Shown in pieces: positions 2,269-43,352 of a stretch of DNA of 43,352 nt. This stretch comes from a candidate division WWE3 bacterium CG_4_9_14_0_2_um_filter_35_11. GTDB lineage: Bacteria; Patescibacteriota; WWE3; 2-01-FULL-39-13. The notes beneath the pieces are model-generated. The model made no database searches. It worked only from the letters and a program-made list of their open reading frames with translations, and was not told the DNA's origin. Where the stretch lies: NCBI GenBank assembly GCA_002789015.1, contig PFSJ01000022.1, positions 1 through 43,352 of the forward strand. The letters are read 5' to 3'. Each line of letters opens with the position of its first letter. Positions within the stretch are counted from its first letter, which is position 1. Made by a program: the position numbers and the translations under genes.

Positions 2269-2721
2269 CTAGCGTTTTTGATTTTTTAGATCTCTTTCTA
2301 TATCTCTTTTTTCTTGAGCTTCCATCAAAGCTCTTTTCTTATCGGACTTCTTTTTCCCTTTTGCAAGACCGATTTCAAGCTTAATGAGTGAACCTTTTGT
2401 ATAAAACTTAAGTGGAATTAACGTAAAGCCTTGTTTCTCTGTTTTGTCTAAAAGAAAGTCTAATTCTTTTTTCGTGAGCAATAGTAAGCGAGTTCGAGTT
2501 GAATCGTAATCAAGAAGTGTTCCGGATTTGGAGTAGGGCGGCAGGTTGAAGCCTATAAGGCTCAACCTGCCGCCCGTTCCTTTCACATAAGTTCCAGTAA
2601 GATTTCCTTTTCCTTCTTTTAATGCTTTTACTTCGACTCCCAAAAGTTTTATTCCAGCTTCGTATTTTTCTATAATTTCATAATCGTGGTAAGCTTTTCG
2701 ATTTCTAATTATTGTGGACAT
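2269..2721 (-). CDS. smpB: SsrA-binding protein SmpB
   Basis: IRNRKAYHDYEIIEKYEAGIKLLGVEVKALKEGKGNLTGTYV...DSTRTRLLLLTKKELDFLL. Confidence 0.95.
   Translation of the reverse strand: MSTIIRNRKAYHDYEIIEKYEAGIKLLGVEVKALKEGKGNLTGTYVKGTGGRLSLIGFNLPPYSKSGTLLDYDSTRTRLLLLTKKELDFLLDKTEKQGFTLIPLKFYTKGSLIKLEIGLAKGKKKSDKKRALMEAQEKRDIERDLKNQKR
2536..2575. repeat. Intragenic perfect inverted repeat (14-bp stem plus 3 inner bp) inside smpB
   Basis: GGGCGGCAGGTTGA (2536-2549) / TCAACCTGCCGCCC (2562-2575), inner GCC/GGC. Confidence 0.95.
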
Positions 2722-2723
2722 TT

Positions 2724-4562
2724 TTATTCCTCAACTATAAAAAAGCTTTTTCCTTTTTCGAAGACAATTTTTGGTGTTGCGTCTTTTGTTAGTGAAAATG
2801 AAACTGGGGTTTCAATATCCGCTTCATTTGATAATAGAATTTCTTTTTCAAATTTTCCGCTTGATCTTTTGAACACGATTATTTTATTTTGATCTAAAAC
2901 AAATATAGAAGTTGTTGATATCTCTATTTGCGTTGGGGATTTTAATTTTGATTTTTCGATTTTAAACTCACTCACCAATTTCCCGCCTGCATATTTATAG
3001 ACGTCATTACTTGATAAAACATAGATATTTGAATCTACAGCAATAGATTTTGTATTACTTAATGCTTCGTCATTTAACCATTTTTTTGGTTCGGTTGTCC
3101 CAAGCTTGTAGGAATAAATATTATCCGCAGTTAAAATATAAAGCACGTCCCAAGATGGATATATATCGATCACATTTTCAAGATCCGCAAAGTATTTGTC
3201 TATCTCTTCTCCTTTTTTATTAGCATCAAAAACAATAAATCCATCTTTTCCATATACAAAGCAAAGATCCTTCATCTCGCTTTGATGGATTTCACATTCT
3301 ATGAGCTTAGGGTTGGAAACAGTTGGCTCTAGCTTTATCGCTTCTTTTTTACTTATATCAATTTTGAAAACAGATCCGCTATTTGAATCAAGCGAAATCA
3401 AGTTTCCTCTAATAGTTGAAAGTGATATCGGTAAAATGTTTTTTTCTATATTAGAAAATTTAATAATTTCTTTATGCAGATTTATTGGCGTTTGGTCGTC
3501 GCTTTCTCCCTTTATTTGTCCATCTTTGTTTGGGAGGTTAAAGGCAACTTCGTTTGAGTTATCTAATTTATTATTTTGTTTGTTTTCATAGAATAATTTG
3601 TAATTAACAAATCCGATTCCAAGTAGCATTGCAAGGCCTACCGCAATTTGTTTTTTGCCTTTATTTGTTGATTTTCTTTCATTAATTCTTTTTGGTCCAC
3701 GTGGAGTTGATTCTATTGCCGCAGATGGTCTTGTTTCGGATATTCCGGTAATAGATGAAACAGGAGCTGCTTTTTTACTTTGATAGAACTTAAATTTTTC
3801 TGATAGTGCTTCACTGTTTGATATCTTTGATTTTACTTTCCAGATTGTTCCAGAAATCGAGTTTCCAATATTTAAGGATTTCACTTTGTCTGTTATTGAT
3901 GATGATTGTTTTTCTATAGAGGCCGATGCCTTGATTAGTATCGCTGAAATTTTATCAGCGTCTTTATGCGTTGCGATTGTGCTTGATAGTGATCCAAGGC
4001 TGTTTATTATTTCTGTCGCCGGAAATGTATTTGCAAATATTTCTGTTCCTATTATTACAACATCTTCATTTTCAATTATGTTTGAACTAGTCCAAATTTC
4101 ACGAGATCCTTTTTCTAAAACCAGATCTCTTGTTCCTGTTCCTTTTATTAAGTAAATTGCAGGTGATCCAATATGGCTTGTGTATAAAACTCTATTCCAA
4201 ATTAAGGCTGTTGCGCATGAGATATCAAAGTTTGATTGTGTGGATCCTAGCGAATCATTTCCATCAATTGATTTGATTGATAGTAATAGTTGATGGGCTC
4301 TTCTAAGTGATGCTTCTATCGCATGAAGAGGAGTTTCGTCATTTATTTTATAAAATGATTCTTGAAGGCTTTCAATAAACAACGTTGAAATTTCTTTTAA
4401 GTCAAAATTATCGTTTGCTGAAATGTTTAATGTTACAAAAAGTCTGCCTCGTTTTGTCAGTGCTTGATCATCTGGAACGTCGAATTCATGAGTAACTGTA
4501 ATATAATCTTTAGTGCTTTGACCGGAGCCTCCTATGCTTTGTACTTTTAGAGAAAACCTCAT
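2724..4562 (-). CDS. PP2C-like (probably catalytically degenerate) N-domain, transmembrane helix, C-terminal propeller-like region
   Basis: CATALIWNRVLYTSHIGSPAIYLIKG...ENEDVVIIGTEIFANTFPATEI resembles the PPM phosphatase core; TM AVGLAMLLGIGFVNYKLFY; repeated strand motifs in the C-terminus. Confidence 0.5.
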   Translation of the reverse strand: MRFSLKVQSIGGSGQSTKDYITVTHEFDVPDDQALTKRGRLFVTLNISANDNFDLKEISTLFIESLQESFYKINDETPLHAIEASLRRAHQLLLSIKSIDGNDSLGSTQSNFDISCATALIWNRVLYTSHIGSPAIYLIKGTGTRDLVLEKGSREIWTSSNIIENEDVVIIGTEIFANTFPATEIINSLGSLSSTIATHKDADKISAILIKASASIEKQSSSITDKVKSLNIGNSISGTIWKVKSKISNSEALSEKFKFYQSKKAAPVSSITGISETRPSAAIESTPRGPKRINERKSTNKGKKQIAVGLAMLLGIGFVNYKLFYENKQNNKLDNSNEVAFNLPNKDGQIKGESDDQTPINLHKEIIKFSNIEKNILPISLSTIRGNLISLDSNSGSVFKIDISKKEAIKLEPTVSNPKLIECEIHQSEMKDLCFVYGKDGFIVFDANKKGEEIDKYFADLENVIDIYPSWDVLYILTADNIYSYKLGTTEPKKWLNDEALSNTKSIAVDSNIYVLSSNDVYKYAGGKLVSEFKIEKSKLKSPTQIEISTTSIFVLDQNKIIVFKRSSGKFEKEILLSNEADIETPVSFSLTKDATPKIVFEKGKSFFIVEE

Positions 4563-4585
4563 GAACCGATTATACCTTATATGTA

Positions 4586-4822
4586 TTAAAGGATTACAGA
4601 GGTTATGAGCGTTATTATTAACACAACAGCTAGATGGAAATATGCAAAGAAAAATATCAGTTTATTTGTGTCACTTTTGATTGTTATTGTCATGAACTTT
4701 ATTTGTCTTATTACAACGACTGAAATTATTGAGTATACAAATAAAAATATTTCCAGAAGCCATTTTGCGATTGTGTAAATTTCTATTTGGCTAATTATTG
4801 TTAAGTTATTTACTATGTCCAT
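4586..4822 (-). CDS. Small integral membrane protein
   Basis: About two hydrophobic helices; likely start MDIVNN at 4822. Confidence 0.45.
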   Translation of the reverse strand: MDIVNNLTIISQIEIYTIAKWLLEIFLFVYSIISVVVIRQIKFMTITIKSDTNKLIFFFAYFHLAVVLIITLITSVIL

Positions 4823-5372
4823 TTTTTTTGTGCTCCTCAACTAAATCTGTAAGTTTGTTGTGGACTAAACTTGGCTTTGGTATTGAAGTGAATTCAAATT
4901 CTGTTTTTTCTGCAGCCGTTTGCATGAAAATATCTCCATAATCAAAAAGTATGTGGAGGAAACTTTTTGTTTCGTATGTTACGTCTTCAACATTTGAAAG
5001 TGGCGCTTCTGAAATGCGTTTTCCCCAGAATCCTTTAAAATCAACATCAATGACTCTTTTATTTGTGATTATATAGACATTAAAATACCAAATTAAAAAT
5101 GATTCAAATGTGTATAGCATCGTTAATGAGTACCATAAGATTAATAAAATGATTTGATATTCTGATTGAACGTATTTAAACGTGTCTATTTTGTTGTTTA
5201 GTATAAAAGACATTAGTGCTAGTGGTGCGACGATTAAAAATATGGAAAATATTATCCAGCCAAGGTTTGTGATCGGATGCCTTCTTAATAGAAAATATAA
5301 TTGTTCTTCTTTTTCTTGAGATTCAAAACGGATGCCTTTTGGCTTTTGTAATATAGCATTGAAAATACTCAT
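4806..5372 (-). CDS. bPH2-like (bacterial PH domain) membrane protein
   Basis: Two TM helices followed by YIITNKRVIDVDFKGFWGKRISEAPLSNVEDV. Confidence 0.7.
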   Translation of the reverse strand: MSIFNAILQKPKGIRFESQEKEEQLYFLLRRHPITNLGWIIFSIFLIVAPLALMSFILNNKIDTFKYVQSEYQIILLILWYSLTMLYTFESFLIWYFNVYIITNKRVIDVDFKGFWGKRISEAPLSNVEDVTYETKSFLHILFDYGDIFMQTAAEKTEFEFTSIPKPSLVHNKLTDLVEEHKKNGHSK

Positions 5373-5392
5373 GATAGATTCCTTTGTTTTGA

Positions 5393-6085
5393 TTATACAT
5401 TATGGAATTCATCTTTTGTTAAAGTTAGGCACGTTATTTTTTTAGCGCCGTAGGTTTTAAGAACTTTTGATGATTCAATCATGGTTGCGCCGGTAGTTAA
5501 AACATCATCAACTAATAAAATTGATTTATTTTGTATGTGTGTAATAAACTGTTTTTGAATTAGAATCTTCCCGCGAAGGTTATATCTTCTAGTTTCACCT
5601 GTTAACTGTTTTTGGCTTTTCCTTGAATTTTTTATTAATAAGTCTATGATCGGCAAATGTTTTATCTCGCTTATTTTTTTAGCAATGTATAAGGCATGAT
5701 TTGTACCTCTTGCTTTTTGTGTAGATTTTGTCATAGGGACGGGAGTAATAATATCAATGTCATTTAATGAATTCATTTTTGCGAGATTTTCTTTCAAATA
5801 TATAAGTGTTTCTAGTAATGTATAACTTTTTTGACCATATTTAGCTTTTAGAACTATTTGCCTTGAGATATTGTTGTATGAACAAAACGAAATATAGCTG
5901 TCAGGTGTGTATGAATTACTGCATGATTTATGCGTGCTTCCCCCCACCGATATTCCATCGCAGACAATACAGGTGTCAAAGGAAATAAGTTTTAGGTTTT
6001 TTTTGCATCTCTCACATAGAGATGTGCCAAGCTCATTACATATGATGCAGAATTTTGGAAATATCGCATTCAGTAAAATACTCAT
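5393..6085 (-). CDS. comF: ComF-family amidophosphoribosyltransferase-like protein
   Basis: N-terminal CxxC pairs (CIICNELGTSLCERC...CIVC) and PRPP motif ILLVDDVLTTGATM. Confidence 0.9.
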   Translation of the reverse strand: MSILLNAIFPKFCIICNELGTSLCERCKKNLKLISFDTCIVCDGISVGGSTHKSCSNSYTPDSYISFCSYNNISRQIVLKAKYGQKSYTLLETLIYLKENLAKMNSLNDIDIITPVPMTKSTQKARGTNHALYIAKKISEIKHLPIIDLLIKNSRKSQKQLTGETRRYNLRGKILIQKQFITHIQNKSILLVDDVLTTGATMIESSKVLKTYGAKKITCLTLTKDEFHNV

Positions 6086-6195
6086 ACTTATAGTATTGTG
6101 ATTTTTAATTAAAATATCTTTTTCTATTTATTAAAAAATTTGAACAAATATTTGTCTTATCGGCAAAGTATTACTAAATGTAGTATTATTTCAGT

Positions 6196-8073: not shown

Positions 8074-8093
8074 GTATCACCCCATAACATTCC

Positions 8094-8221
8094 AAAAACG
8101 GACGTTGCTCATAAGCACTTATTGTAGTTAAGTAGTACTTGTCACACAACAGGTTGTTGTTTGATGATAACGAGTGTCCTGCGGAGAGCTTTGCTCCTGC
8201 CCGTAAGTTTTGACCGTTTTT
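8094..8221 (+). ncRNA. Candidate structured 5' leader of nrdR-nrdJ
   Basis: 8-bp closing inverted repeat AAAAACGG (8094-8101) / CCGTTTTT (8214-8221) enclosing hairpins ACAACA-GGT-TGTTGT and GAGC-TTT-GCTC. Confidence 0.35.
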
Positions 8222-8702: not shown

Positions 8703-11219
8703 ATGAATAAATTAAAAGAAAAAGTTGAATACTCAACTTTGACACCTATAAGATCAATTGATCTTGATGATAATGCACGTGAAATATTTATGCGGAGGTA
8801 TGCATTGAAAGGCTCAGACGGGAAGCCGAATGAAACTGTAGAAGAAGCTTTTTTTCGAGTTGCCGATCATATCGCACAAGGAGAATCGAGCAAAAAATTA
8901 AAATCTCAATATTCAGAATATTTCTATAGACTCTTAGGAGCTAAAAGATTTATTCCAAATACGCCAACCTGGTCAGGTGCAAAAACGAAACTTGGCCAAC
9001 TAGCAGCATGTTTTGTACTTCCAATAATTGATGATATGGGAAAGGAGGACGGCGGCATTTTTGACACGCTCAAAAATGCCGCACTAATCCAGCAAACTGG
9101 AGGCGGAAATGGTTTTTCGTTTTCAAACTTGCGGCCAAAAGGTTCTAGGGTAGGTTCTAGTAATGGTATCGCCAGTGGCCCTGTGAGCTTTTTAGAAGCT
9201 TACGACAAAGCTTTTGGGATGATTGCCCAAGGTGGAACAAGACGTGGTGCTAATATGGCCGTTTTACGTGTGGATCATCCAGATATCGAAGATTTCATAA
9301 AGTGCAAATCGGATGAAGGATCTGTTTCTAATTTCAATATTTCAGTTGGAATTACAGATAAGTTTATGAATGCAGTTAAATCTGATTCGAAGTTTGATCT
9401 TATAAATCCTCATGACAATACCGTTTTTAAGACTGTTAAAGCTCGTGAGATTTTTGACATGATTGTTAAGTATGCATATAAAAACGGTGAGCCTGGAATT
9501 TTATTTTTAGATGTGGCAAATAGACAAAATCCTGTTCCAAATCAATATACTTTAGAGGCAACAAATCCATGTGGAGAACAATGGCTTGGTCCTTATGAAA
9601 ATTGTTGTCTTGGACATGTGAATATTAATGCTTCAATTATCGATGGGAAATTGGATTGGGAACATTTAAAAGAGTCCACGATATTAGGGACAAGATTTTT
9701 AGATGATGTCGTTGAAATAAATGCATACGTTCCATCTGTTCCAAAATTGAAAGAAGCAGCACATAAAAATAGAAGAATCGGGCTTGGTTTTATGGGACTT
9801 GCTGATGCAATGTATAAGCTAGGCATTAGGTATGGAAGTGCAGAAGGTTTTGATTTTGCATCTCAAGTGACGGAATTTATTAGATATCATTCAATGTTAG
9901 AAAGTATTGCTTTGGCAGAGGAGAAAGGTGCGTTTCCTGGAATCAAGGGAAGTATTTATGATAAAGATGATTTAAAATGGACAATCCCAACTCCACTTGT
10001 TGAACATAAGTTGAAACTTTCAAGGCCCTCATTAAATTGGAATAAAGTTCAAACCGGAATAAAAAAATTTGGTATTAGAAACTCCACTCAACTTACGGTT
10101 GCTCCAACAGGAACTACTGCAACAATTTCAGGGCTTGAAGGTTATGGATGTGAACCAGTTTTTGCTTTGGCTTACTTTCGAAATGTTTATCAATCTGCTG
10201 GAGGAAATGAAAATTTAAAACTTACATATGTAAGTCCGTTTTTTCAAAAAGCTATGGATGAGTCGGGCTTAGATGCTGATTTCAAAAAAACAATTGTAGA
10301 AACCGCAATAGAAAAAGGTTCTATACAGGACATAAAAGGTTTGCCTCAGTATATTAAAAATACTTTTGTTGTATCTTCTGATATTGCGCCAAGTGAGCAT
10401 GTTTGGACCCAGGCTGTCATTCAAAGGTTCGTAGATAATTCAATTTCTAAAACATGCAATTTTCCCGCTGAAGCAACAGAGGAAGACGTTAAAAATGTTT
10501 ATATATCTGCATGGGAATTGGGATGTAAGGGTCTTACAGTTTATGTAACAGGTTCAAGGGATGAAGTCGTTTTAGAAACAAAAGAGACTGTTCAGAAAAG
10601 AGGAAAGGAAGATGGAAGCACTGCACAGACTCAACCGCTTGATATTGGACATAAAAGGCCGAGACCTTCTGTTGTAATAGGAAGAACACATGAGGTCAAA
10701 ACGCCATTTGGAAAAGCTTTTGTGACGGTTAATCGCAACGGCGAAACTGGCAAAAAGCCGTTTGAAGTTTTTATTATGATTGGAAAAAGTGGAAGTGATT
10801 CTGCCGCATTTTCTGAGGCTATTGGAAGACTTATTAGCGGTTGGTTAAGAAGTGCTAGTAATCCAAATCAAGCTTTAGAGGAAATTGCATACCAGTTACG
10901 TGGAATTGGTGGTTCTGTAAGTATTGGATTTGGTTCTGAAAGAGTCGCAAGTATTCCAGATGCTGTCGCTAGGGTTTTACTAAATGAGCTTACTTTAAGT
11001 GATCGATTAGAGGATTCAAGTATGTCTTCTTTGCTTGAAAGTGGAGAAGAGTTTATTCAAAAAGATTTGTTTAGTGAGAAAGATGAAGAACCTCAAGAGG
11101 TGAATATTACAAGTGCAGTGTTCAAAGATGCATCAGTTTGTCCTGAATGTAATAATATGACGCTTGTCGAAACAGAAGGCTGTATTAAGTGTCATACCTG
11201 TTCGTATAGTAGATGCTAA
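8703..11219 (+). CDS. nrdJ: Adenosylcobalamin-dependent (class II) ribonucleoside-diphosphate reductase
   Basis: TPTWSGA, LAACFVLPI, NPCGEQWLGPYENCCLGHVN, QLTVAPTGTTATISG; C-terminal CPECNNMTLVETEGCIKCHTC. Confidence 0.95.
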   Translation: MNKLKEKVEYSTLTPIRSIDLDDNAREIFMRRYALKGSDGKPNETVEEAFFRVADHIAQGESSKKLKSQYSEYFYRLLGAKRFIPNTPTWSGAKTKLGQLAACFVLPIIDDMGKEDGGIFDTLKNAALIQQTGGGNGFSFSNLRPKGSRVGSSNGIASGPVSFLEAYDKAFGMIAQGGTRRGANMAVLRVDHPDIEDFIKCKSDEGSVSNFNISVGITDKFMNAVKSDSKFDLINPHDNTVFKTVKAREIFDMIVKYAYKNGEPGILFLDVANRQNPVPNQYTLEATNPCGEQWLGPYENCCLGHVNINASIIDGKLDWEHLKESTILGTRFLDDVVEINAYVPSVPKLKEAAHKNRRIGLGFMGLADAMYKLGIRYGSAEGFDFASQVTEFIRYHSMLESIALAEEKGAFPGIKGSIYDKDDLKWTIPTPLVEHKLKLSRPSLNWNKVQTGIKKFGIRNSTQLTVAPTGTTATISGLEGYGCEPVFALAYFRNVYQSAGGNENLKLTYVSPFFQKAMDESGLDADFKKTIVETAIEKGSIQDIKGLPQYIKNTFVVSSDIAPSEHVWTQAVIQRFVDNSISKTCNFPAEATEEDVKNVYISAWELGCKGLTVYVTGSRDEVVLETKETVQKRGKEDGSTAQTQPLDIGHKRPRPSVVIGRTHEVKTPFGKAFVTVNRNGETGKKPFEVFIMIGKSGSDSAAFSEAIGRLISGWLRSASNPNQALEEIAYQLRGIGGSVSIGFGSERVASIPDAVARVLLNELTLSDRLEDSSMSSLLESGEEFIQKDLFSEKDEEPQEVNITSAVFKDASVCPECNNMTLVETEGCIKCHTCSYSRC
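9052..9082. repeat. Intragenic perfect inverted repeat (13 bp) inside nrdJ
   Basis: GCGGCATTTTTGA / TCAAAAATGCCGC, loop CACGC. Confidence 0.95.
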
Positions 11220-11233
11220 GTATCTGATGTCTG

Positions 11234-11261
11234 AGGCGACGCCAATTTATTGGCGTCGCCT
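11234..11261 (+). terminator. Strong hairpin downstream of nrdJ (12-bp perfect stem), terminator-like without a clear T-run
   Basis: AGGCGACGCCAA TTTA TTGGCGTCGCCT. Confidence 0.6.
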
Positions 11262-12674: not shown

Positions 12675-12703
12675 GGGCGGGCGGCAATTCTTGCCGCCCG
12701 CCC
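12675..12703. terminator. Perfect 13-bp GC hairpin between the convergent sipW-like and HU genes
   Basis: GGGCGGGCGGCAA TTC TTGCCGCCCGCCC. Confidence 0.6.
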
Positions 12704-14817: not shown

Positions 14818-15501
14818 CTAATCGATATTGTATTGGTGCTCTATATAAGTGTCAACAATAGGTTGTATGTCTTCCCAAGAGAATCCTTTTTGCAAAAGGT
14901 GGGTATATAGGGCTTTTCTTGTCTCGTGTATATTTTTATTTCTATTTTTTAATTGTTGGAGTTTCTTTCCTAATAGAGACTGGATTTTGGCTGATTCGTC
15001 AGTTATATTAATGTCTTTTGATATTCCTTCAATGATCTCGGAAGAGATGCCTTTGCTTTTTAGTTCTGCTTTTATGTGTGAAAAACTTTTCGGTGATCTT
15101 CCGTTATTTCTTTGAGAAGTAAGCCATGTAGCAAATTCAAGGTCATTTACGTAGTTTTTTTGTTGTAGATAATGGAGAATTTCGCTAATTACTTCTTTTT
15201 GATTTTCTCCAATGTGTTCTTTTATTTCAGGTTTTAGGAAGATTTTCTTTTTTATGTATTGTGAGACTTCATTTGAGCTGTGTGGCCTTGAAGATATGTA
15301 ATTTAGGCAGGCATCCAAAAGGTAATTTTTGGATGCCTGCCGTTTATAAATTTCTAATTCTTCGATAGAGACTTCTTCCCTAACAGATATCTTCGATTTC
15401 AATAAATCATTTGCAGATATGCTAAATGAATATAGCTCGTCTATGTATACGTTATATCTGTCAGATCTCTTTTTCTGCTTCGATATTCTCGTTATTGTCA
15501 T
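14818..15501 (-). CDS. recX: Regulatory protein RecX
   Basis: [16 protein letters not shown], adjacent to and overlapping recA. Confidence 0.85.
15306..15341. repeat. Intragenic perfect inverted repeat (15 bp) inside recX
   Basis: GGCAGGCATCCAAAA / TTTTGGATGCCTGCC, 6-nt loop. Confidence 0.95.
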
Positions 15502-26703: not shown

Positions 26704-28380
26704 GTGCTTATGGTCATGAGGCTTATTCAAAAAGGATCCAGGGCCTTTACTTCCCAGCAATATACAATATTGTCTGCGGCGGCAGTAATAGCCATTATTT
26801 ATTTACTTTCAGCCTTTCTAGGCTTCATTCGTAATCGCCTTTTATCAGGATATTTTGGAGACTCAATAGAACTAGGGATTTATTTTGCAGCAGATGATAT
26901 TCCTAGTTTGATATTTTCGTTAATTGTATCTGGTGCTTTGTCAGCAGCGTTTATTCCAGCTTTTACAAAGTCATATAAAAATAATGAAAAAGAAGGCTGG
27001 AATTTGACCTCCAGTATGTTAAATATTTCACTTGTAGTCTTTTTGATAATCGGGATTTTCATAATGATATGGGCTAAAACGATTTCGCAAGAAATAATCG
27101 CAAGAGATAGTTCATTAACGCAGGAAAATCTTGTGCTTATGGCGAGCATCATGCGAGTCATGATGCTCGCCCAAATAATATTAATATTTAGCAGTTTTTT
27201 TACTAGCGTTTTACAGTCATTCAAAAGATTTGTAATTCCATCACTGGCTCCTGTTTTTTACAATATAGGAATTATCATTTTCATTTTACTTTTTATTAAG
27301 CGGCTTGGGGTCTTTGCTCCTGCTTGGGGAATGGTGTTTGGAGCAATCCTTCATATGTCGGTTCAATTGATTGCTGTTAAAAAGTTAGGATTTTCATACT
27401 CTTTTAGTTTTGATTTTAAAGATAAGGTTGTTAGAAATGTATACAAGTTGATGGCCCCAAGAGCAATTGGTCAGGCAGCTCAAAAATTCCTGAATCCACT
27501 ATATACAAATTTGGCTCTTTTCATTTCAGCGCCATCGAATGTTATTCTCACTTTTGCAATGGATATTCAGATGCTTCCTGTAAGAATATTTGGGATGTCT
27601 ATAGGGCAAGCCGCGTTGCCAATTTTGGCCAATGCATATAGAGAAGACGATACAAAAGAATTTAGTGATTTACTTCTAAAGACAATCAGGCAAATTATAT
27701 TTTTCGTTCTACCTGTAAGCATTTTGATGTTTATACTTAGAGTTCCATTAGTTAGGTTAACAATTGGCGCAAGAAAGTATTCCTGGGAAGCAACAGTTAT
27801 GACAGCTTATACACTTGGCTTTTATTGTATTTCTCTTGTTGCTCAATCATTGATACTTGTTTTGGCTAGAGCCTTTTTCGCAATGCATGATACAAAGACG
27901 CCATTAAAAATAAGTTTATTTGCAATCTTTGTGAACGCATTTACTGCAATCTTATTTGTAAGGTATATGCATTTAGGAGTTTGGAGCTTGGGTTTTTCAT
28001 ATGCCCTTGGAAGCATTGTTGATGCAGGTTTACTGTTTTATTACTTATCTAATCGGTTAGAAAATCTAGACATAACAAAGTTTATAAATTCAATAAATAA
28101 AATTATGCTAGCTTCTGTAATTATGGGTATTGCACTTTATATTCCTTATCGTGCTTTAGATGTTTTAATATTCGACACAACAAGAACAATTGGTTTAATT
28201 TTGTTAACTGGGATAGTTTCTGTGATAGCTTTTCTTACTTACATGTCGTGTGCTTGGCTTTTTAAGATTGAAGAATTTAATATGATTATTGTGACTATTG
28301 ATAATAGATTTTTGAAGAAAGGCTTTTTAAAGTTTCAAGGTCAAGGTTCGGATCAACCGGTTCTGAAATCTGAAGATTAA
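26704..28380 (+). CDS. murJ: Lipid II flippase MurJ/MviN
   Basis: AFLGFIRNRLLSGYFG, SGALSAAFIPAF, multi-TM; start may be one of several clustered ATG/GTG codons. Confidence 0.93.
   Translation: MLMVMRLIQKGSRAFTSQQYTILSAAAVIAIIYLLSAFLGFIRNRLLSGYFGDSIELGIYFAADDIPSLIFSLIVSGALSAAFIPAFTKSYKNNEKEGWNLTSSMLNISLVVFLIIGIFIMIWAKTISQEIIARDSSLTQENLVLMASIMRVMMLAQIILIFSSFFTSVLQSFKRFVIPSLAPVFYNIGIIIFILLFIKRLGVFAPAWGMVFGAILHMSVQLIAVKKLGFSYSFSFDFKDKVVRNVYKLMAPRAIGQAAQKFLNPLYTNLALFISAPSNVILTFAMDIQMLPVRIFGMSIGQAALPILANAYREDDTKEFSDLLLKTIRQIIFFVLPVSILMFILRVPLVRLTIGARKYSWEATVMTAYTLGFYCISLVAQSLILVLARAFFAMHDTKTPLKISLFAIFVNAFTAILFVRYMHLGVWSLGFSYALGSIVDAGLLFYYLSNRLENLDITKFINSINKIMLASVIMGIALYIPYRALDVLIFDTTRTIGLILLTGIVSVIAFLTYMSCAWLFKIEEFNMIIVTIDNRFLKKGFLKFQGQGSDQPVLKSED
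27141..27171. repeat. Intragenic perfect inverted repeat (13 bp) inside murJ
   Basis: GGCGAGCATCATG / CATGATGCTCGCC, loop CGAGT. Confidence 0.95.
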
Positions 28381-29076: not shown

Positions 29077-29626
29077 TTAGTGTTACCTCCATAGAAAAAG
29101 AATAAGATTTATCTTCTGGAATATACTTACTTGCAGTCAATAAAACATCCTTTACTTGTTTGTCAGATATTAATCCAGTCAAGAATATGCTAAACGAGTC
29201 ACTTGAATTTGCTATTGCCGAAAATGTCACTTCGCTCTTTGTATATGTAATATTTTCAATTGTAATATCACGTGGAAGACTTCCGGAGAATTTATTGAAT
29301 CTTTCAGCCCAATTAATTTCATTTAATTTTACTGATTTAATGAGTACCAACTTTTTTTGGATTTGAATGTGTTCTTTTTCAATTTGTGACATGCTAAGTA
29401 TTTTCGCCTCTTGCTCTGATATTTTTTCGATGGATTTAGATATATCGTTGTCGATTTTTATTCGTATGAAGAAGATTGTGATTACGATTGTTGCTACTAC
29501 TACGAGAATTTTACGGCCGCTTGCGATTGTCCAATCAAAGACAATCGCAAGCGGCCCACTTTTAGTTTCTTCCTTGTTAAGTAATTCTTCTGGAATAAAA
29601 TTTATTGGATCAATAGCTTCTGGCAT
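29069..29626 (-). CDS. PilN-like type IV pilus assembly protein
   Basis: Cytoplasmic N-term MPEAIDPINFIPEELL, one TM, coiled coil, WAERFNKFSGSLPRDITIENITYTKSEVTFSA; start taken at MPEA. Confidence 0.65.
   Translation of the reverse strand: MPEAIDPINFIPEELLNKEETKSGPLAIVFDWTIASGRKILVVVATIVITIFFIRIKIDNDISKSIEKISEQEAKILSMSQIEKEHIQIQKKLVLIKSVKLNEINWAERFNKFSGSLPRDITIENITYTKSEVTFSAIANSSDSFSIFLTGLISDKQVKDVLLTASKYIPEDKSYSFSMEVTLNE
29515..29556. repeat. Intragenic perfect inverted repeat (17 bp) inside the pilN-like gene
   Basis: GGCCGCTTGCGATTGTC / GACAATCGCAAGCGGCC, 8-nt loop. Confidence 0.95.
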
Positions 29627-31456: not shown

Positions 31457-33092
31457 TTTTTCCATTTGCGATGGTTACGACTACGATTGGTTCTCTTCCT
31501 GTTTCTTTATATAAAAATTGTTGAAGTTTGTTTTCTATCTTTCTAATATCTTTTTTCTCCGAAAGTGATTTTCTAATAGTATTTTTTGCAGATTCCAAAA
31601 GTTTTTTAGACCCTTTTATGAAAACAAATCCCCTTGTTATCAATTCTATATTCTGTCCTTGAATTACAACTGCCACCATTCCGTGGTTTGCCATTTGAAT
31701 TCTATCTTTAAGTACGCTTGCACCAACATCTCCAACTAGATTTCCGTCTACGTAGACTTCTTTTAGTTTTAGTCGATCACCGAGTTGTGCTTTGCCATCT
31801 TTAAATACAATGCTTTGGCCATCTAGTAATTGGGCGACATTCCTTTTATCAAATCCGTGTGAATCGATTAGGTTTGCATATGCTCTCATGTGTTTAATGC
31901 TTCCTCCAATTGGTATGAAATATTTTGGCCTGACTAGATTTGCAAGAAGGACCATGTCACCTTGGCCGCCGTGGCCTGATACATGAAGGTCATCTTGAAT
32001 TTCTGAATAATAAACATCGACACCTTTTAAATAAAGTTCATCTATAAGCGCATTTACGGTTGCGACGGAATTTGGAATTGGGTCTGCGGAAAAGATTACG
32101 ACTGATTTTTCTGATAGTACTATGTTTTTGTGTTCGCCTAAAGCGACGCGCCAAAGACCTGCCTCTTTTTGACCATAGCATCCGGTAATTACGTAAACTA
32201 ATGTTTCTTGATTGTGTTTGTGCGCGTCGCTCTCATCTATTATTGTATTTTTCGCTTCTTTTATGTATCCCATTTGCTGAGCGATTTCAATTGTGTTTCT
32301 TATTGATCTTCCGCTTAAAACAACTTTCCTGCCGAATTTTTCAGCAGCATTTATTGCTTGTTGAATTCTTGAAATATTTGATGAAATTGTTGTGATGAAG
32401 ACTTGTTTGCCTACAGAATCTTTTAGAACCGTTTCAAATGTTTCTTGTATTTTGCTTTCTGATTCAGTGAATCCTTCTGATGTTGAACCAAGACAATCTG
32501 AAAGTAACGCTAGGACTCCTTCTGGCGGCTCGCCTGCAAGGCGAGCCGCCTTCTGTACATCAAAAGGTTTGTCCATTACAGGCGACCAGTCAAATTTAAA
32601 ATCCGAATTGTGAAAAACTCTTCCTTGAGGTGTGTCGATTGCAAATCCGAGTGTATCTGGTATCGAATGGTTTACCCTAAAAGGAGTCAATCTAAAACAT
32701 CCAAGTTGAAATGATTGATTAGGGTCAAATGGTTTTACTTTATAATCCCCTAAACTTGTATATTCTTCTAATGATTTTTCAATTAATGCTTTGACAAATG
32801 GGACAGCATAAACATCAAACTTATGTTCTTGAAGCAAGTATGGCAAAGATCCTCTATGATCTTCGTGTCCATGAGTTATTACAACTCCACGAACTTTGTG
32901 TCTGTTTTCTAAAACGTATGTAAAATCTGGGATTGTAACGTCAACTCCAGGGGTTTCCATGTCTGGAAATCCAATTCCGCAGTCCATTACTAAAATGTCG
33001 TTTCCGCATTCATAAACATACATATTTTTTTGAACTGTTGTCGTTCCGCCGATTGGTATAATCTTTAAAGATGGTCTTTCGCTTATATTCAT
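31443..33092 (-). CDS. rnj: Ribonuclease J
   Basis: THGHEDHRGSLPYLL metallo-beta-lactamase, beta-CASP HVSGHGGQGD. Confidence 0.95.
   Translation of the reverse strand: MNISERPSLKIIPIGGTTTVQKNMYVYECGNDILVMDCGIGFPDMETPGVDVTIPDFTYVLENRHKVRGVVITHGHEDHRGSLPYLLQEHKFDVYAVPFVKALIEKSLEEYTSLGDYKVKPFDPNQSFQLGCFRLTPFRVNHSIPDTLGFAIDTPQGRVFHNSDFKFDWSPVMDKPFDVQKAARLAGEPPEGVLALLSDCLGSTSEGFTESESKIQETFETVLKDSVGKQVFITTISSNISRIQQAINAAEKFGRKVVLSGRSIRNTIEIAQQMGYIKEAKNTIIDESDAHKHNQETLVYVITGCYGQKEAGLWRVALGEHKNIVLSEKSVVIFSADPIPNSVATVNALIDELYLKGVDVYYSEIQDDLHVSGHGGQGDMVLLANLVRPKYFIPIGGSIKHMRAYANLIDSHGFDKRNVAQLLDGQSIVFKDGKAQLGDRLKLKEVYVDGNLVGDVGASVLKDRIQMANHGMVAVVIQGQNIELITRGFVFIKGSKKLLESAKNTIRKSLSEKKDIRKIENKLQQFLYKETGREPIVVVTIANGKTTSP
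32524..32550. repeat. Intragenic perfect inverted repeat (12 bp) inside rnj
   Basis: GGCGGCTCGCCT GCA AGGCGAGCCGCC. Confidence 0.95.
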
Positions 33093-34213: not shown

Positions 34214-35272
34214 ATGTTAATTAGGCGCATTGAATTAGAGAATTTTAGGAGTCATAAAAAATCCAGATTTGAATTTTCAAAAAATGTAACAATTATTGTT
34301 GGTCTAAATGGTTCAGGAAAAACTAATTTGTTGGAATCTATTGCTTTGCTGTCTTTGGTAAAGCCAGTTAGAGGCGGTCTTGAAGCGGATTTGATTAATA
34401 TTGATTCTAATTTCTCTAGAGTTGTCGGAATTTATGAAGACTGTGATGGTGATGAGGTGAAGTTAGAGGCCATTTTAAATAAGAAGCCGGATTCAAATAG
34501 AGTTGTTAAAACTTTTAAGGTTAATGGGGCGCAAAAAACAGCTGTTCAGTTTGTCGGGCAGTCGAAGGTTGTGTTTTTTGCGCCAGAGGATATCCGTTTG
34601 GTAGCAGGTTCTCCTTCTAGGCGCAGAGATTTTATTGATCGGATTTTAAGCCAAGTTCATTATGATTATCATAAGGCTCTATTAAAATATGAAAGAGTTC
34701 TAAAACACAGAAATAAAGTTTTAGAACATGGTCATGAGGCACAGCTTTTAGTTTGGGATTCTCAACTTTTGGGGTCAGCTCAAGTTGTTCAAAATTATCG
34801 AAAGAAATTTTTTAGTTTTTCAGATCAAAATTTAAAAGATATTAGTGTTAATTTATTTAGCGACGGCTTTTCGCTCTCAACGCAATATATTCCAAGCGTT
34901 TTGTCTCAAGATAGTTTATTAAGATCCAGACAAAGAGATTTATTGTATGGGACTACTCAATTTGGGCCACATCGAGACGATTATTCATTTATATTGAAGA
35001 ACCATCACGTTTTAGATCTAAAACACTATGGTTCGAGAGGACAGCAGAGAACCGGCGTTTTATGCATGAAGATTTTGGAAGATAAATATATAAAAGAAAA
35101 TTCAAAAGTGTCACCGATTTTGCTTTTAGATGATATCTTCAGTGAGCTTGATGAAAATTACAGAAGCGCAATCGAAAATGTAATAAATTCGAATCAAACA
35201 ACAATTACAAGTGCTGATATTAATTCCATACCTGACAGCATAAAAAATAATGCTAAGATTATTACACTATGA
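34214..35272 (+). CDS. recF: DNA replication/repair protein RecF
   Basis: MLIRRIELENFRSHKKSRFEFSKNVTIIVGLNGSGKTNLLESI...ILLLDDIFSELDENYR. Confidence 0.95.
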   Translation: MLIRRIELENFRSHKKSRFEFSKNVTIIVGLNGSGKTNLLESIALLSLVKPVRGGLEADLINIDSNFSRVVGIYEDCDGDEVKLEAILNKKPDSNRVVKTFKVNGAQKTAVQFVGQSKVVFFAPEDIRLVAGSPSRRRDFIDRILSQVHYDYHKALLKYERVLKHRNKVLEHGHEAQLLVWDSQLLGSAQVVQNYRKKFFSFSDQNLKDISVNLFSDGFSLSTQYIPSVLSQDSLLRSRQRDLLYGTTQFGPHRDDYSFILKNHHVLDLKHYGSRGQQRTGVLCMKILEDKYIKENSKVSPILLLDDIFSELDENYRSAIENVINSNQTTITSADINSIPDSIKNNAKIITL

Positions 35273-37095
35273 CATCCGACGAAATACGCAGACGTTTTTT
35301 AGATTATTTTGTTAAAGTTTTAGCCAGGGAAAACATGGAACATATCGAAGTTCCATCTAGCTCTTTAATTCCTGAAAATCATCCGACGTTACTTTTTACT
35401 AATTCAGGAATGGTCCAATTTACGCCTTACTTTCTCGAAGAGAAGGATCCTGTTTCCGATTTTGGATCTAAAAGATTATGTTCCGCCCAGAAATGTATAA
35501 GAACTGGAGATTTGGATATTGTTGGCATAAGCAAATATCACAATACATATTTTGAGATGTTGGGGAATTGGTCAATTGGCGACTACGGTAAAAAGGAAGC
35601 CGTTAAATTTTCTTTTGACCTTTTGACAAATAAAGATTATGGGTTTGGACTGGATCCAAGCCACTTTTATCCAACTGTTTTTGCCGGAAATGAAGATGCT
35701 CCAGAAGATTTGGAAACGATAGAAGCGTGGAAATCTGTAGGAATTCCAGAAAGTAGGATCCCAAGACTTCCAGCTAGTGAAAACTGGTGGGCTCCAGGGC
35801 CTATTGGCCCTTGCGGTTCATGTACTGAAGTGCTCTATGACAGAGGTCCTGAATATGGACCAGAAGAAGAAGTTCCAGGTATGACTGATAATCCACGTTA
35901 TCTTGAAATATGGAATGCTGGTGTATTCATGCAATTCAACCGTGACGAATCGGGGAAATTAGTTCCACTTGCCAAGTTGAGCGTTGATACAGGAAGTGGG
36001 CTTGAAAGATTGTCTGTACTTTTACAGAATGTCGATAGTAATTATGAAACAGACCTCTTCCGTCCGATTATTGAAAAAATCGCTTCTTTGTCTGTTTCAC
36101 CTGTTGATGTAAGGAAAGTCGAAATAAAAAGTTCGATTCAGCGAGTTGCTGATCATATTCGAGCATCGACCTTTTTGATTGTCGAAGGTTTATACCCTTC
36201 GAATAAAGATCAGGGATATGTTTTGCGAAGACTTATAAGAAGGATCTTTGATGAATGTGTTTGGAAACTTGATATTGATAGCTCTAAGATTATTGAGATT
36301 CTTCCAACTGTTATAGAGATAAATAAAGAAAGATACCCAGAACTTGATAAGCTAGATTTTATTACAGGAGTTTTCAAAACAGAAATTGATCAATATAAAC
36401 TAGCTTCCGACCGAACGCGATCATTTATTATTAAAAACTATGTAAAAAAGGGCATAAAAGAAGTTATTAATCCTTTTGATATTTATCAGTCTCAAGGAGC
36501 TTCAAGAGATTTAATTGAAAATCTTGCTAATGAGCAAGGCATTAATGTCGATTTTAGCAATTTTGATAATGATGTCGCGTCTCATCAAGATAAATCAAGG
36601 TCAAATATGTCGCAAAGATTTAAAGGTGGTCTTGGTGATCATTCAGAGGAAACAACTAAGCTTCATACTGCTACACATCTTTTGCATCAGGCTTTGCGAG
36701 AAGTTTTAGGCGATCACGTTCATCAGATGGGAAGTAATATAACTCCTAAAAGACTTCGCTTTGATTTTTCACATGATAAAAAAATGACTGATGAAGAAAT
36801 TAAAAAGGTTGAACAAATTGTTAATCAAAAGATTAAGGAATCATTAACAGTAAATAAAGTAGTAATGTCAAAATCAGAAGCAGAAAAAACTGGCGCACTT
36901 CATTTTTTTGCTGATAAATATACTGATGAAGTTAGCGTTTATTTTATTGGCGATTCTATTGAAAATGCTTGGTCAAAAGAGTTTTGTGGAGGTCCTCACG
37001 TGAAAAATACATCCGAGATAGGTGGTTTTAAGATTATTAAAGAGGAATCTGTTGCTAAGGGTGTAAGGCGGATCAGGGCTACTAACGTTTTGTAA
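35269..37095 (+). CDS. alaS: Alanyl-tRNA synthetase, short form (608 aa)
   Basis: LFTNSGMVQFTPYFL, QKCIRTGDLD, ENWWAPGPIGPCGSCTE, editing motifs HTATHLLHQAL and CGGPHV; ends without a C-Ala domain. Confidence 0.95.
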   Translation: MTSDEIRRRFLDYFVKVLARENMEHIEVPSSSLIPENHPTLLFTNSGMVQFTPYFLEEKDPVSDFGSKRLCSAQKCIRTGDLDIVGISKYHNTYFEMLGNWSIGDYGKKEAVKFSFDLLTNKDYGFGLDPSHFYPTVFAGNEDAPEDLETIEAWKSVGIPESRIPRLPASENWWAPGPIGPCGSCTEVLYDRGPEYGPEEEVPGMTDNPRYLEIWNAGVFMQFNRDESGKLVPLAKLSVDTGSGLERLSVLLQNVDSNYETDLFRPIIEKIASLSVSPVDVRKVEIKSSIQRVADHIRASTFLIVEGLYPSNKDQGYVLRRLIRRIFDECVWKLDIDSSKIIEILPTVIEINKERYPELDKLDFITGVFKTEIDQYKLASDRTRSFIIKNYVKKGIKEVINPFDIYQSQGASRDLIENLANEQGINVDFSNFDNDVASHQDKSRSNMSQRFKGGLGDHSEETTKLHTATHLLHQALREVLGDHVHQMGSNITPKRLRFDFSHDKKMTDEEIKKVEQIVNQKIKESLTVNKVVMSKSEAEKTGALHFFADKYTDEVSVYFIGDSIENAWSKEFCGGPHVKNTSEIGGFKIIKEESVAKGVRRIRATNVL

Positions 37096-39823: not shown

Positions 39824-39824
39824 T

Positions 39825-40229
39825 ATGAGAATACTTGGAATTGATTATGGCGAAAAAAATATCGGAATTGCAATTGGTGTTAATGATATTGTTGAACCTT
39901 TTGGAGTTTTCAAATTCGATATAGAAAAATCAATTCTTAAAATTGTGGAGGATGAAAGAATTGATGCAGTAGTCATTGGTTTGCCGTTTATAAAAGGGGA
40001 GTCAACTAAGGCGTCCCCAAAAGCTAAAGCTTTTGGGGACGCCTTAAAGGAAAAACTTCCTAACAAAGTTAACCTTTTTTATGTTGATGAGTTTGGAACG
40101 ACAAATGAGTCAAATGATATTGCATTGGCTTCTGGTGTTTCCCAAAAAAGAAGAAAAGTTGATGATGCAATAGCTGCGTGTCAGATTATAAAAAGATTTA
40201 TCGAAGACTTTCCTTTGTCCAATTTATAA
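39825..40229 (+). CDS. ruvX: Holliday junction resolvase-like RuvX/YqgF
   Basis: MRILGIDYGEKNIGIAIG, VVIGLPFIKG, VDEFGTTNE, KVDDAIAACQI. Confidence 0.92.
   Translation: MRILGIDYGEKNIGIAIGVNDIVEPFGVFKFDIEKSILKIVEDERIDAVVIGLPFIKGESTKASPKAKAFGDALKEKLPNKVNLFYVDEFGTTNESNDIALASGVSQKRRKVDDAIAACQIIKRFIEDFPLSNL
40007..40046. repeat. Intragenic perfect inverted repeat (18-19 bp) inside ruvX
   Basis: TAAGGCGTCCCCAAAAGCT / AGCTTTTGGGGACGCCTTA, 2-nt centre. Confidence 0.97.
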
Positions 40230-41709
40230 GTTTTGTTGTGTCTCCAAATCTATCTTCTGATCCCAAGACTATTATTAGGTATTGGCTTGATTTATCTTCA
40301 TAAAGGTATATTAGACATTCTCTGGCTCCAGTTGTGAAGCCTGTTTTTACTCCGACAGTTCCTGGGATTGTAAAAAGTAAATCGTTTGTATTTTTTATTT
40401 TATAAGTCCTATTTGTGTTTGTTAAAGATACTAGCTTGACTTCTTTTGTTCCTACAATTTTTCTAAAGACTCCATATTTAAGACTGTACTTTGTTAGCTT
40501 TTCTAAATCATTGACTGTTGAAAGTTGAATTTTATCTGAATCAAGACCAATTGGGTTTTCAAATATTGTTTTTTCCATTCCAATTTCATTAGCTTTTTGA
40601 TTCATTTTATCTATGAAATCGGTTTCATTATATAAATTGGCAAGTGCACACGCAGCATCTGCCCCTGATCTTACTAAAAGTCCATACAAAACGTCTTCTA
40701 ATGAAAGTACGTCTCTTGCTACAAATCCGACTTTGCTTGCGTTTATGTTTGTACATTTTGCTGGAATATAAACCGGCTTTTCCAAGTCATACTCATCCAT
40801 TGCTACCATTGCTGTCATGACTTTTGTAACAGACGCAGGAGGAAGAGGAAGGTCTGGGTTTTTTGTATAGATTGTAGAATCATTTTTCATGTCAAATATT
40901 CCGTATGCTTTTGCTGAAACTTCTGGAGGCTCAATTTTATATCTTGGGTTTTCGTCAATTGTATTTGCCGCGGCATCAGATATACCCAAAACTTCTGGCG
41001 GATTTTGATCTACAATAATTTGCGTAGGTATTTTCTCTTGGCCTTTTGTTAAATTTCCTGCGGTGAATGAAGCTACCATTAATGTGGCCACCAAAAACGA
41101 ATATACATACTTATGGGCTGTGATTTTATTTCTTTTAAATCTATGCTTTGTTTCTGGTTGCTCTTTTGGAGCTGGCAGCATTTTTATTTCCTCGCTAATT
41201 TTTCTTTGTTCTTTTACTTCTTTTTCGGCAAATTTACCAAGTGTTGGTTTTACTATTTTGACCCAGTCGCCAGTGTTCATCCTGATGCTGATTTTATGAT
41301 CTCCTGCATTAAATTCGATTTCGTTGGTTCTGATAATTCCTGCTTCGACAAAAACTTGAACCTCCGGCTCGAATAAATTCCCAAATGGCGCAACGGCGCC
41401 TGGTTTTACTCCAGAAACTTTTTCTACATCTTCGCTTGAGGCCATTTTTAAATTCTCAAATCCAAAACGTGCTTTAAATTTTTCTTTATCGACACGTTTA
41501 GTTCCTTGTATTACAAGTTGCAGGAAAATCTTTTCATTTTGGCCGGACCTTTTTCCAGAGAAAATAAGTGCTTTTGCGCCTTCTTCTGGATTTCCTCCGC
41601 GTATTTTGGCTGCTTCTTCGCTTGTGAAAACCGCTTCGTGTCTGAGCTCATTATAATTTATTTTTTTAGAATCAAGTGTTTTTTTGATTTTGGAATATAA
41701 AGAAGGCAT
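40198..41709 (-). CDS. Fusion: N-terminal YbaK/ProX-like aminoacyl-tRNA deacylase domain, TM helix, D-Ala-D-Ala carboxypeptidase (DacA-like)
   Basis: YbaK-like HEAVFTSEEAAKIRGGNPEEGAKALIF...GVKPGAVAPFG...EIEFNAGDHKISIRM; TM YVYSFLVATLMVASFTAG; PBP motifs SVTK, SGA, KTG. Confidence 0.88.
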   Translation of the reverse strand: MPSLYSKIKKTLDSKKINYNELRHEAVFTSEEAAKIRGGNPEEGAKALIFSGKRSGQNEKIFLQLVIQGTKRVDKEKFKARFGFENLKMASSEDVEKVSGVKPGAVAPFGNLFEPEVQVFVEAGIIRTNEIEFNAGDHKISIRMNTGDWVKIVKPTLGKFAEKEVKEQRKISEEIKMLPAPKEQPETKHRFKRNKITAHKYVYSFLVATLMVASFTAGNLTKGQEKIPTQIIVDQNPPEVLGISDAAANTIDENPRYKIEPPEVSAKAYGIFDMKNDSTIYTKNPDLPLPPASVTKVMTAMVAMDEYDLEKPVYIPAKCTNINASKVGFVARDVLSLEDVLYGLLVRSGADAACALANLYNETDFIDKMNQKANEIGMEKTIFENPIGLDSDKIQLSTVNDLEKLTKYSLKYGVFRKIVGTKEVKLVSLTNTNRTYKIKNTNDLLFTIPGTVGVKTGFTTGARECLIYLYEDKSSQYLIIVLGSEDRFGDTTKLINWTKESLR

Positions 41710-41710
41710 C

Positions 41711-43352
41711 CTAGTTATTATACAATTTTAAATCCTTAATTTTTACCTCAATTTTAGTATTACCATTCCATGTGTTTTGGGAAAGATTAAAGACGACGTC
41801 TATGGCTTGGCCATTTTCAAGTGAGTTTGATAGGCTTCCTTTCCCAAAAGCGAGGCCTGTGAATTGATTGCCCAATTTATCTTTTAGAAATAGTTTTAGA
41901 TGATCGTTTTCTTTTCCAAATCTTGAAAAATTTGCCACTGTAATATTTTTTGTGCAAAATACTGGTTCGCGGTTCCCAACTCCAAATGGTTTTAGTTTGT
42001 AAATTTCATTGAGTGTTTCTAAATTTATTAAAGTTGGATTTATTAGAGCGTCGATTTTCAAAGATTTTTTGAAAATCGACGCATCCCATTCATCAAGAGA
42101 CGAAAGTTTTTCTTTTAATTCCTGGATTTTTGAAGGTTTTATGGAAAAGCCGGCGGCCATTTCATGGCCGCCGAGTCCTTCAAAAAGTTCACTAAATTTT
42201 CTTAGTACGTCAACGATTGAAATTCCAGGTATTGATCTTGCAGATCCTTTAGCAATGTCATCTTTTTCATTTATTGCAATTGCGATTCCTGGTCTGTAAT
42301 ATTTTTGTGTTAATTTCCCTGCGACAAGTCCTATTATTCCTTCGTGGTAGTTTGTGCTTGATGTAACTATAAAATTCTTTACTACTCCTTCAGAATTTTC
42401 CTTTTCGATTTCGTTTATTGCGGCAAATGTGTCGGTTATTGTTTTTTCTTGCCTTTGTGAATTTAGCGAGTTTAATTTTTTGGAAAGGACCATAGCTTGT
42501 TCCATTGAATTTGTTGATAAAAGTCTTAGTGAATCCATCGCGTCTTCCATTCTTCCTGTTGCGTTGAGTCTTGGTCCGATTTGCCATCCTGCTTCATATT
42601 CTCCGATTTGATCTTTTATTAATGCGATTTGCGAAAGTGCATTAATTCCAATTGGCATATTTAGATTTAATTCTAAGAGTCCATGTTTAACGATTGATCG
42701 ATTAAATCCAATTAGAGGTTGAAGATCGCAGATTGTCCCAAGTGCGGCGAGGCCCAGTTTTTTTATTGATGTTTCTGGTGAAAGTTCGTTTGCGAGTATC
42801 CACGCTATTCCTGCACCCGTTGCATTTGTTGTGTGAATGATTTCATCTGCTTTTGGAAGCTTTCCGTGTGATTCGTGATGATCAGTGATTATTACTTTAT
42901 ATCCGAGTTTTTTGGCTTCTAAAACTTCCTTATTTGAAACTATGCCACAGTCGACCGTTATTAATAAGGGTAGCCCTTGTTTTGAAGGGGCTACCCTTAT
43001 AGCAGAGAGACTTTTTGAACTTAAACCGTATCCATCATCGAATCTGTTAGGTATGAAAGGCCTCACATTTTTGTATTCGAGGTCTTCGTATATTGTCTTC
43101 CAAAGTATTGCGGTCGCAGTTTGTCCGTCTACGTCATAATCACCGTGAATAATTATTTCCTCATTATCTTTTATTGCATCCAGTATTATGTTTTTTGCTG
43201 GAATTACGTGTTCCTTTATAAGTGCAACCATTTCTTTATAGCTTTTTATAAACTCGCTGGGAGCTTTTGGTTCAAGAAATCCTGAAATGTCTTTGATTTG
43301 CCTATTTCCTAAAACTATTTTAGTGATATCTTCTGTCATATTGATTTGAGAT
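41711..43352 (-). CDS. recJ: Single-stranded-DNA exonuclease RecJ (5' end may lie beyond the right edge)
   Basis: IIHGDYDVDGQTATAIL, LLITVDCGI, ITDHHE, GLGGHEMAAGFS; frame open to the window edge upstream of the ATG at 43339. Confidence 0.93.
   Translation of the reverse strand, partial: SQINMTEDITKIVLGNRQIKDISGFLEPKAPSEFIKSYKEMVALIKEHVIPAKNIILDAIKDNEEIIIHGDYDVDGQTATAILWKTIYEDLEYKNVRPFIPNRFDDGYGLSSKSLSAIRVAPSKQGLPLLITVDCGIVSNKEVLEAKKLGYKVIITDHHESHGKLPKADEIIHTTNATGAGIAWILANELSPETSIKKLGLAALGTICDLQPLIGFNRSIVKHGLLELNLNMPIGINALSQIALIKDQIGEYEAGWQIGPRLNATGRMEDAMDSLRLLSTNSMEQAMVLSKKLNSLNSQRQEKTITDTFAAINEIEKENSEGVVKNFIVTSSTNYHEGIIGLVAGKLTQKYYRPGIAIAINEKDDIAKGSARSIPGISIVDVLRKFSELFEGLGGHEMAAGFSIKPSKIQELKEKLSSLDEWDASIFKKSLKIDALINPTLINLETLNEIYKLKPFGVGNREPVFCTKNITVANFSRFGKENDHLKLFLKDKLGNQFTGLAFGKGSLSNSLENGQAIDVVFNLSQNTWNGNTKIEVKIKDLKLYNN
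42048..42082. repeat. Intragenic perfect inverted repeat (15 bp) inside recJ
   Basis: GCGTCGATTTTCAAA / TTTGAAAATCGACGC, loop GATTT. Confidence 0.95.
42151..42173. repeat. Intragenic inverted repeat (10 bp) inside recJ, over the GGHEMAAG motif
   Basis: CGGCGGCCAT TTC ATGGCCGCCG. Confidence 0.9.
42964..43000. repeat. Intragenic perfect inverted repeat (13 bp) inside recJ, each arm itself near-palindromic
   Basis: ATAAGGGTAGCCC / GGGCTACCCTTAT, 11-nt loop. Confidence 0.95.

Follow-up and report, generated by a model that had tools for sequence, protein, structure and literature searches.

Perfect coding palindromes in one genus of WWE3 bacteria, possibly maintained by hairpin-templated correction

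Candidate division WWE3 bacterium CG_4_9_14_0_2_um_filter_35_11 carries, inside ordinary and often conserved protein-coding genes, an abundance of perfect hairpins with short loops, a trait that is pronounced in a single genus and slight outside it. The window analysed here is the whole of contig PFSJ01000022.1 (C16; 43,352 nt), one of the 31 contigs of a genome assembly of 750,652 bases with 35% GC, in which a family of such hairpins had been noticed from the letters alone (hereafter, the original prediction). Two kinds of element are present. Class A is a dispersed repeat of REPIN type found beside a RAYT-like gene, whereas class B, separate from it and making up the bulk of the hairpins, consists of stems of 10-19 bp with mutually unrelated arms, short loops, and a GC clamp at the base. 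We tentatively prefer, at somewhat less than an even chance, to read class B as palindromes in coding DNA that arose from quasi-palindromes and that correction templated by the hairpin itself keeps perfect; selection for a functional hairpin is a close rival.

Results

Excess of perfect stems and lineage restriction

When stems are defined as perfect, at least 12 bp long, and closed by loops of at most 12 nt, the window holds 11 of them, nine in genes, against a mean of about zero under a dinucleotide shuffle, which bears out the chance-defying excess claimed in the original prediction. A stricter null, in which synonymous codons trade places gene by gene, preserving both the protein and the codon usage, had been set beforehand as the test that could refute the claim, and the excess survives it: with loops of up to 14 nt, the window genes contain nine stems against 0.13 expected, the maximum in 200 shuffles being three. 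A scan of the genome and its relatives, proposed together with the original prediction, shows that the excess extends past the window. Under the same codon-preserving shuffle, 540 kb of genes from this genome yield 51 stems against 1.05 expected, and 361 kb of genes from the congener G001, the single species of the same genus compared and about 80% identical in genes, yield 14 against 0.70. Genes outside the window are mechanical open reading frame calls, and the main counts cover 574 kb of the 750-kb genome. In this sample, 61 perfect stems of at least 12 bp were found, a density of 10.6 per 100 kb, and the window, at 25 per 100 kb, is about 2.4 times as dense.

Beyond the genus, the density drops sharply, with five stems in 731 kb of genes from other families of the class (about 0.7 per 100 kb) and 12 in 1.28 Mb of genes from unrelated bacteria (about 0.9 per 100 kb), a control set drawn from contigs matched by the alanyl-tRNA synthetase and containing no close relatives. 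For perfect stems of at least 12 bp, the in-gene excess amounts to about 3-4-fold in the control bacteria and about 50-fold here.

We also surveyed nucleases and repair proteins in 34 genomes of the class. SbcD, part of the palindrome-cutting SbcCD nuclease, had no match above the family cut-off in any of them, while ExoVII was above the cut-off in five and MutS in 14. A genus-specific loss of SbcD, ExoVII, or MutS was considered and rejected, given that SbcD was above its cut-off nowhere in the class sample, ExoVII is missing from most of that sample, and the genus does possess MutS; such losses thus provide at most a permissive background.

Anatomy of class B hairpins

Class B is a discrete class rather than the tail of a continuum, since GC-rich in-gene stems of 6-9 bp occur at about the chance rate, while those of at least 10 bp with loops of at most 8 nt are in large excess. 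The stems are, moreover, either perfect or absent, as the 61 perfect ones are accompanied in 574 kb by only six GC-rich stems with one mismatch, a number near the shuffle level. Within the stems, GC falls from 77-89% in the four outer pairs to about 42-54% beside the loop. Of the 53 class B stems of this genome, 46 carry the G of their outermost strong pair on the 5′ side (46 vs 7), a polarity missing in the control bacteria, where stems of the same length split 24 to 26.

Class B hairpins are located at any relative position along genes, mostly mid-gene, and we found no theme in the host genes or positions and no preference in the codon register of the arms; when the arms were tested as internal mini-palindromes, only a slight excess appeared. 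Hairpins conserved in the congener are hosted by ordinary housekeeping genes, among them gyrB, enolase, tsaD, rnj, recJ, pilN, and the genes of the DNA polymerase III delta′ subunit, a type II/IV secretion ATPase, and a pyruvate phosphate dikinase-like enzyme.

Comparison with the congener and with other genera

In about half of the testable hairpins (13 to 15, the count of shared hairpins shifting slightly with the threshold), the arms are 92-100% identical to G001, while the flanks are 75-89% identical; in the remaining testable hairpins, the arms are as diverged as the flanks. The conserved hairpins have sharp edges, with 2.5% mismatches to G001 inside and about 20% immediately outside. Across 14 conserved coding hairpins, 173 of 179 pairs are unchanged and none is doubly changed, and a silent double change is permitted at only 15 of these 179 pairs. 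A codon-level comparison, comprising every hairpin of the genome with a G001 ortholog and made with no selection on conservation, points the same way: where the amino acid is unchanged, a GC-only codon is retained in 56 of 62 instances (90%) inside hairpins and in 544 of 1862 (29%) outside (p=6e-23), so that protein constraint does not suffice as an explanation, and neither does a general conservation of GC-rich codons, which the low figure outside hairpins contradicts.

Where a hairpin is not common to the congener, amino-acid differences are more frequent in it than in its flanks (p=0.002), and gap openings are more frequent as well; with one congener, gain and loss are mostly unpolarised. 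One G001 hairpin has grown from a shorter shared stem through a 6-nt insertion, and in an HhH-GPD glycosylase gene (L067:1822-1850, L044:11832-11860) the arms are identical between the species and the 3-base loop is inverted (GAA vs TTC), which could be the trace of a template switch or, being one case, chance. The hairpins of smpB and ruvX hint at the copying of one arm, with both arms changed and one congener available for polarising. Arm GC averages 0.69 in shared hairpins and 0.58 in the five unshared ones, a small comparison.

Outside the genus, complementarity at most orthologous sites is only partial, yet they pair at 0.42 and 0.38, compared with 0.27 and 0.28 in shifted controls, indicating that the hairpins sit where the protein code favours self-complementarity. 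The gyrB hairpin keeps 12 of 13 pairs in G002, which belongs to another genus, and shows there two compensatory pair changes, synonymous in all four codons; compensatory synonymous changes of this kind in orthologues had been suggested as a check on the original prediction. Judged from these alignments, two hairpins, the one in gyrB and the one at 42151 in recJ, look older than the genus.

Hairpins and neighbouring genes in the window

All ten intragenic and both intergenic stems of the original prediction are present where it placed them, in host genes whose names Pfam bears out; the two intergenic stems, given there as 12 and 13 bp, are each 13 bp long. The smpB hairpin (2536..2575; 14 bp, loop 12) has one arm that codes for the conserved FNLPP, while the other is unlike all aligned relatives and equals the complement of the first. 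The hairpins of the ribonucleotide reductase gene nrdJ (9052..9082) and of murJ (27141..27171) both have 13 bp and a loop of 5, and G002 forms 8 of the 13 pairs at each site. The recX stem (15306..15341) has 15 bp and a loop of 6. In pilN (29515..29556; 17 bp, loop 8), the arms are 100% identical to G001 within flanks of 81%, and of the 12 pairs in rnj (32524..32550; loop 3), 11 are kept in G001 and 2-6 in other genera of the family. The longest, in ruvX (40007..40046; 19 bp, loop 2), forms 9 of its 19 pairs in G001, without an indel.

The recJ gene contains three hairpins, of which one (42048..42082; 15 bp, loop 5) corresponds to a quasi-palindrome with 3-nt indels in G001, and another (42151..42173; 10 bp, loop 3) lies over the GGHEMAAG motif and is identical in G001 and in G003, a member of another genus; the third, at 42964..43000, belongs to class A. 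The residues encoded by the hairpins align gap-free to homologs in smpB, in ruvX (against the congener), and at recJ 42151 (GGHxxAAG), so the stems are translated. Translational bypassing elements were rejected on this ground, for the hairpin segment would then be missing from the protein.

Of the intergenic hairpins, one (11234..11261; 13 bp, loop 2) lies 14 bp past the nrdJ stop, and the other (12675..12703; 13 bp, loop 3) lies between convergent genes and adjoins an HU gene; neither is followed by a T-run. An Rfam search of the window returned the tmRNA as its sole match.

Two neighbouring genes are unusual in themselves. The alanyl-tRNA synthetase at 35269-37095 has its best contig matches in DPANN archaea (Woesearchaeota, 45%; Pacearchaeota, 44%) and is short, with 608 aa against roughly 700 aa for matches in other bacteria, so that horizontal transfer is possible. 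An unusual fusion is encoded at 40198-41709, where a single open reading frame contains both a tRNA-editing domain (PF04073) and a D-alanyl-D-alanine carboxypeptidase (PF00768).

A REP/REPIN-type repeat accounts for one window hairpin

Class A is built from the word GGGTAGCCC/GGGCTACCC, of which 636 kb of the genome, the sample used for REP word counts, holds 71 copies against 0.65 expected. The copies frequently form inverted doublets 20 nt apart, and they lie on both sides of a RAYT-like Y1_Tnp gene (G000:C30:5284-5517; L238), which is how REP/REPIN elements are built. Within the window, class A comprises the doublet GGGTAGCCC...GGGCTACCC in recJ (42968-42976 and 42988-42996, within the hairpin at 42964..43000) and a single word at 1833-1841 beside the tmRNA gene, and it accounts for the recJ 42964 hairpin only. 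The statement in the original prediction that the arms are unrelated and form no dispersed repeat is accordingly right for class B and wrong for this one hairpin, a member of the 71-copy family. A single dispersed repeat as the source of class B is largely refuted by ungapped alignments with the congener and holds for class A alone.

Related elements differ between genomes. A different hairpin occupies the recJ site in the congener (L048 near 17680), with a 19-nt length difference, and the RAYT-like gene of the congener (G001:C2:35826-36113; L172) is flanked by another word, GGGCCTGGCCC. Other genera of the class own the palindromic families GGGACTACCC, CGGGTACTACCCG, and TCGGGTTCGTCCCA (L061, L207, and L208 of G007; L210 of G009), one palindrome among them being perfect with 25-bp arms; G007 and G009 have 4-5 Y1_Tnp genes each.

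Discussion

Correction of one arm from the other as a candidate mechanism

Under the reading that we tentatively prefer, a class B hairpin would start at a site where the protein code already yields partial self-complementarity. One arm would then be copied from the other at the DNA level, whether by template switching during replication or by mismatch repair in an extruded or single-stranded hairpin, and in this lineage that step would make the stem perfect. A stem longer than about 10 bp with a short loop would fold readily, and mutations in one arm would be corrected from the partner arm. Since the partner of a synonymous site is usually a constrained one, changes would mostly revert, and the palindrome may freeze without serving any function; indeed, with silent double changes allowed at so few pairs, correction acting under protein constraint should leave almost all pairs frozen. 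If the correction were G-C-biased, it would also render the arms GC-rich within a 35% GC genome, and the difference in arm GC between shared and unshared hairpins points in that direction.

Several observations favour such a process. Stems are perfect or absent, with a size threshold at 10 bp, as would follow if maintenance reached only foldable stems, and the orthologous sites outside the genus are quasi-palindromes. The recJ 42048 hairpin is matched in the congener by a quasi-palindrome with 3-nt indels, a stem has grown in G001 through an insertion, one loop is inverted, and unshared hairpins show amino-acid changes and gap openings. Other results weigh against it. None of the 15 silently changeable pairs differs between the species, where unbiased copying predicts a few, and the hairpin pairs are static while 38% of flanking synonymous codons differ. 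Neither the G-first polarity nor the clamp of GC pairs at the stem base is predicted or explained by the correction process, and the nuclease survey gives no reason why it should act in this genus rather than in its relatives.

Selected structures and other explanations

It is possible, at roughly one chance in three by our judgement, that the hairpins are instead selected nucleic-acid structures, kept by purifying selection because a lineage-specific factor or process needs a perfect, GC-clamped stem with a 5′ G; the user could be a protein that binds DNA structure, a site of replication or repair, or a device for translation or RNA stability. The frozen arms, the compensation in gyrB, and the defined anatomy of stem size and short loops are explained by selection equally well, as are the sharp edges and the retention of GC-only codons, and this is the sole explanation that accommodates both polarity and clamp. 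Against selection stand the lack of any theme in genes and positions, the absence from the congener of about half of the testable hairpins, the amino-acid costs seen in unshared hairpins, and the rest of the class, which manages without hairpins; the missing preference for G.U pairs, although based on small numbers, speaks against an RNA role. A lineage-specific system in which perfect, G-first, GC-clamped hairpins act as dispersed chromosomal marks, read by shape and strongly selected within essential genes, seems to us rather unlikely. The two options of the original prediction, a selected structure or perfecting by template switching, thus both stand far ahead of chance, except for the class A hairpin in recJ.

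The remaining explanations fare much worse. The short loops and GC-rich stems would suit RNA hairpins, and two of them (11234 and 12675) lie directly past stop codons; still, a role in RNA termination, attenuation, or mRNA stability seems to us very improbable, because no T-run follows the stems, the majority are mid-gene at any relative position, and G.U pairs are no commoner than A.C pairs. The same lack of U-tracts and of a G.U excess leaves termination unsupported, as well as the attenuation that the original prediction had included among its options, and intrinsic terminators in particular are rejected for want of both the T-run and the post-gene position. There is likewise a very slim chance that all hairpins are mobile REP/REPIN palindromes moved by RAYT-like proteins of the genome. 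Such an origin holds for class A, with its copy number, doublets, and flanking RAYT-like gene, and a G on the 5′ side is common to the two classes; however, class B arms are mutually unrelated, the hairpins in ruvX, L012 15535, and L191 5934 show substitutions but no indels relative to the congener, and class B is absent, in the samples read, from families with several RAYT-like genes. Finally, we see practically no room for chance, codon bias, or assembly artefact. Protein sequence does predispose some sites, such as those encoding GGHEMAAG (recJ) and AARAR...AARAAR (gyrB), but codon-preserving shuffles reach only about 2% of the observed count, and the other genomes of the class, processed identically, show the low density given above. 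That the arms might be assembled wrongly, a possibility raised with the original prediction, is very unlikely, since many hairpins recur at orthologous sites in a second species.

Significance

If hairpin-templated correction does operate here, palindromes would maintain themselves in essential genes of a bacterial chromosome, locking the codons that they cover, and pairing rather than the protein would determine the synonymous sites within them; this would be a bacterial case of a process known mainly from animal mitochondria and RNA genes. The genus then offers a test of whether hairpins perfect themselves without function, and it warns against reading a selected function into every case of strong synonymous conservation. 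Should the structures be selected instead, they would represent a genome-wide mark recognised by shape.

Comparison with known systems

Rickettsia palindromic elements are palindromes that lie within protein-coding genes and are translated, inserted as related repeats that lose the identity of their arms over time. Class B hairpins resemble them in being in-gene and translated and differ in having unrelated arms that stay perfect. Class A matches REP/REPIN elements with RAYT transposases (PMC3116915, PMC3733652) in its short palindromic word, its inverted doublets, and the copies flanking a Y1_Tnp gene on both sides, while class B is unlike them, its arms having no common sequence and several hairpins having arisen without insertion.

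Prokaryotic genomes in general exceed shuffled ones in stem-loops, coding regions included (Petrillo et al. 2006, PMC1590033), but the 3-4-fold in-gene excess of the controls is far from the 50-fold excess of this genome. Quasi-palindromes can be corrected by template switching (van Noort et al. 2003 and Ripley 1982, as cited in PMC6649704), and loop inversions and stem-completing insertions are recognised traces of template switches (Monttinen and Loytynoja 2022, PMC8794818). Such correction makes imperfect palindromes perfect, as would happen in class B under the reading preferred here, and the orthologous sites of class B are quasi-palindromes; template-switch correction is, however, described as a general background process, whereas the excess described here belongs to one genus, with a size threshold and frozen arms. 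In the open-licence literature, we found no earlier report for this bacterial group or of the trait in bacteria, which is no proof of absence.

The closest parallel is provided by the coding palindromes of nematomorph mitochondria (Mikhailov et al. 2019, PMC6649704), which are perfect in-gene repeats without an excess of imperfect ones, are gained and lost with some sites shared, and are ascribed by their authors preferentially to repeat conversion or template switching. Class B hairpins are likewise perfect repeats in translated, conserved genes of an AT-rich genome, with no imperfect excess and with some sites common to species and others gained or lost. They differ in lying on a bacterial chromosome, with arms of 10-19 bp that are GC-clamped with a 5′ G, where the mitochondrial arms span 15 to 142 bp (mean 43; PMC6649704), and here the arms were found to be far better conserved than the flanking codons. 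By this analogy, the mechanism that we favour for class B would be essentially the one proposed for nematomorph mitochondria (PMC6649704).

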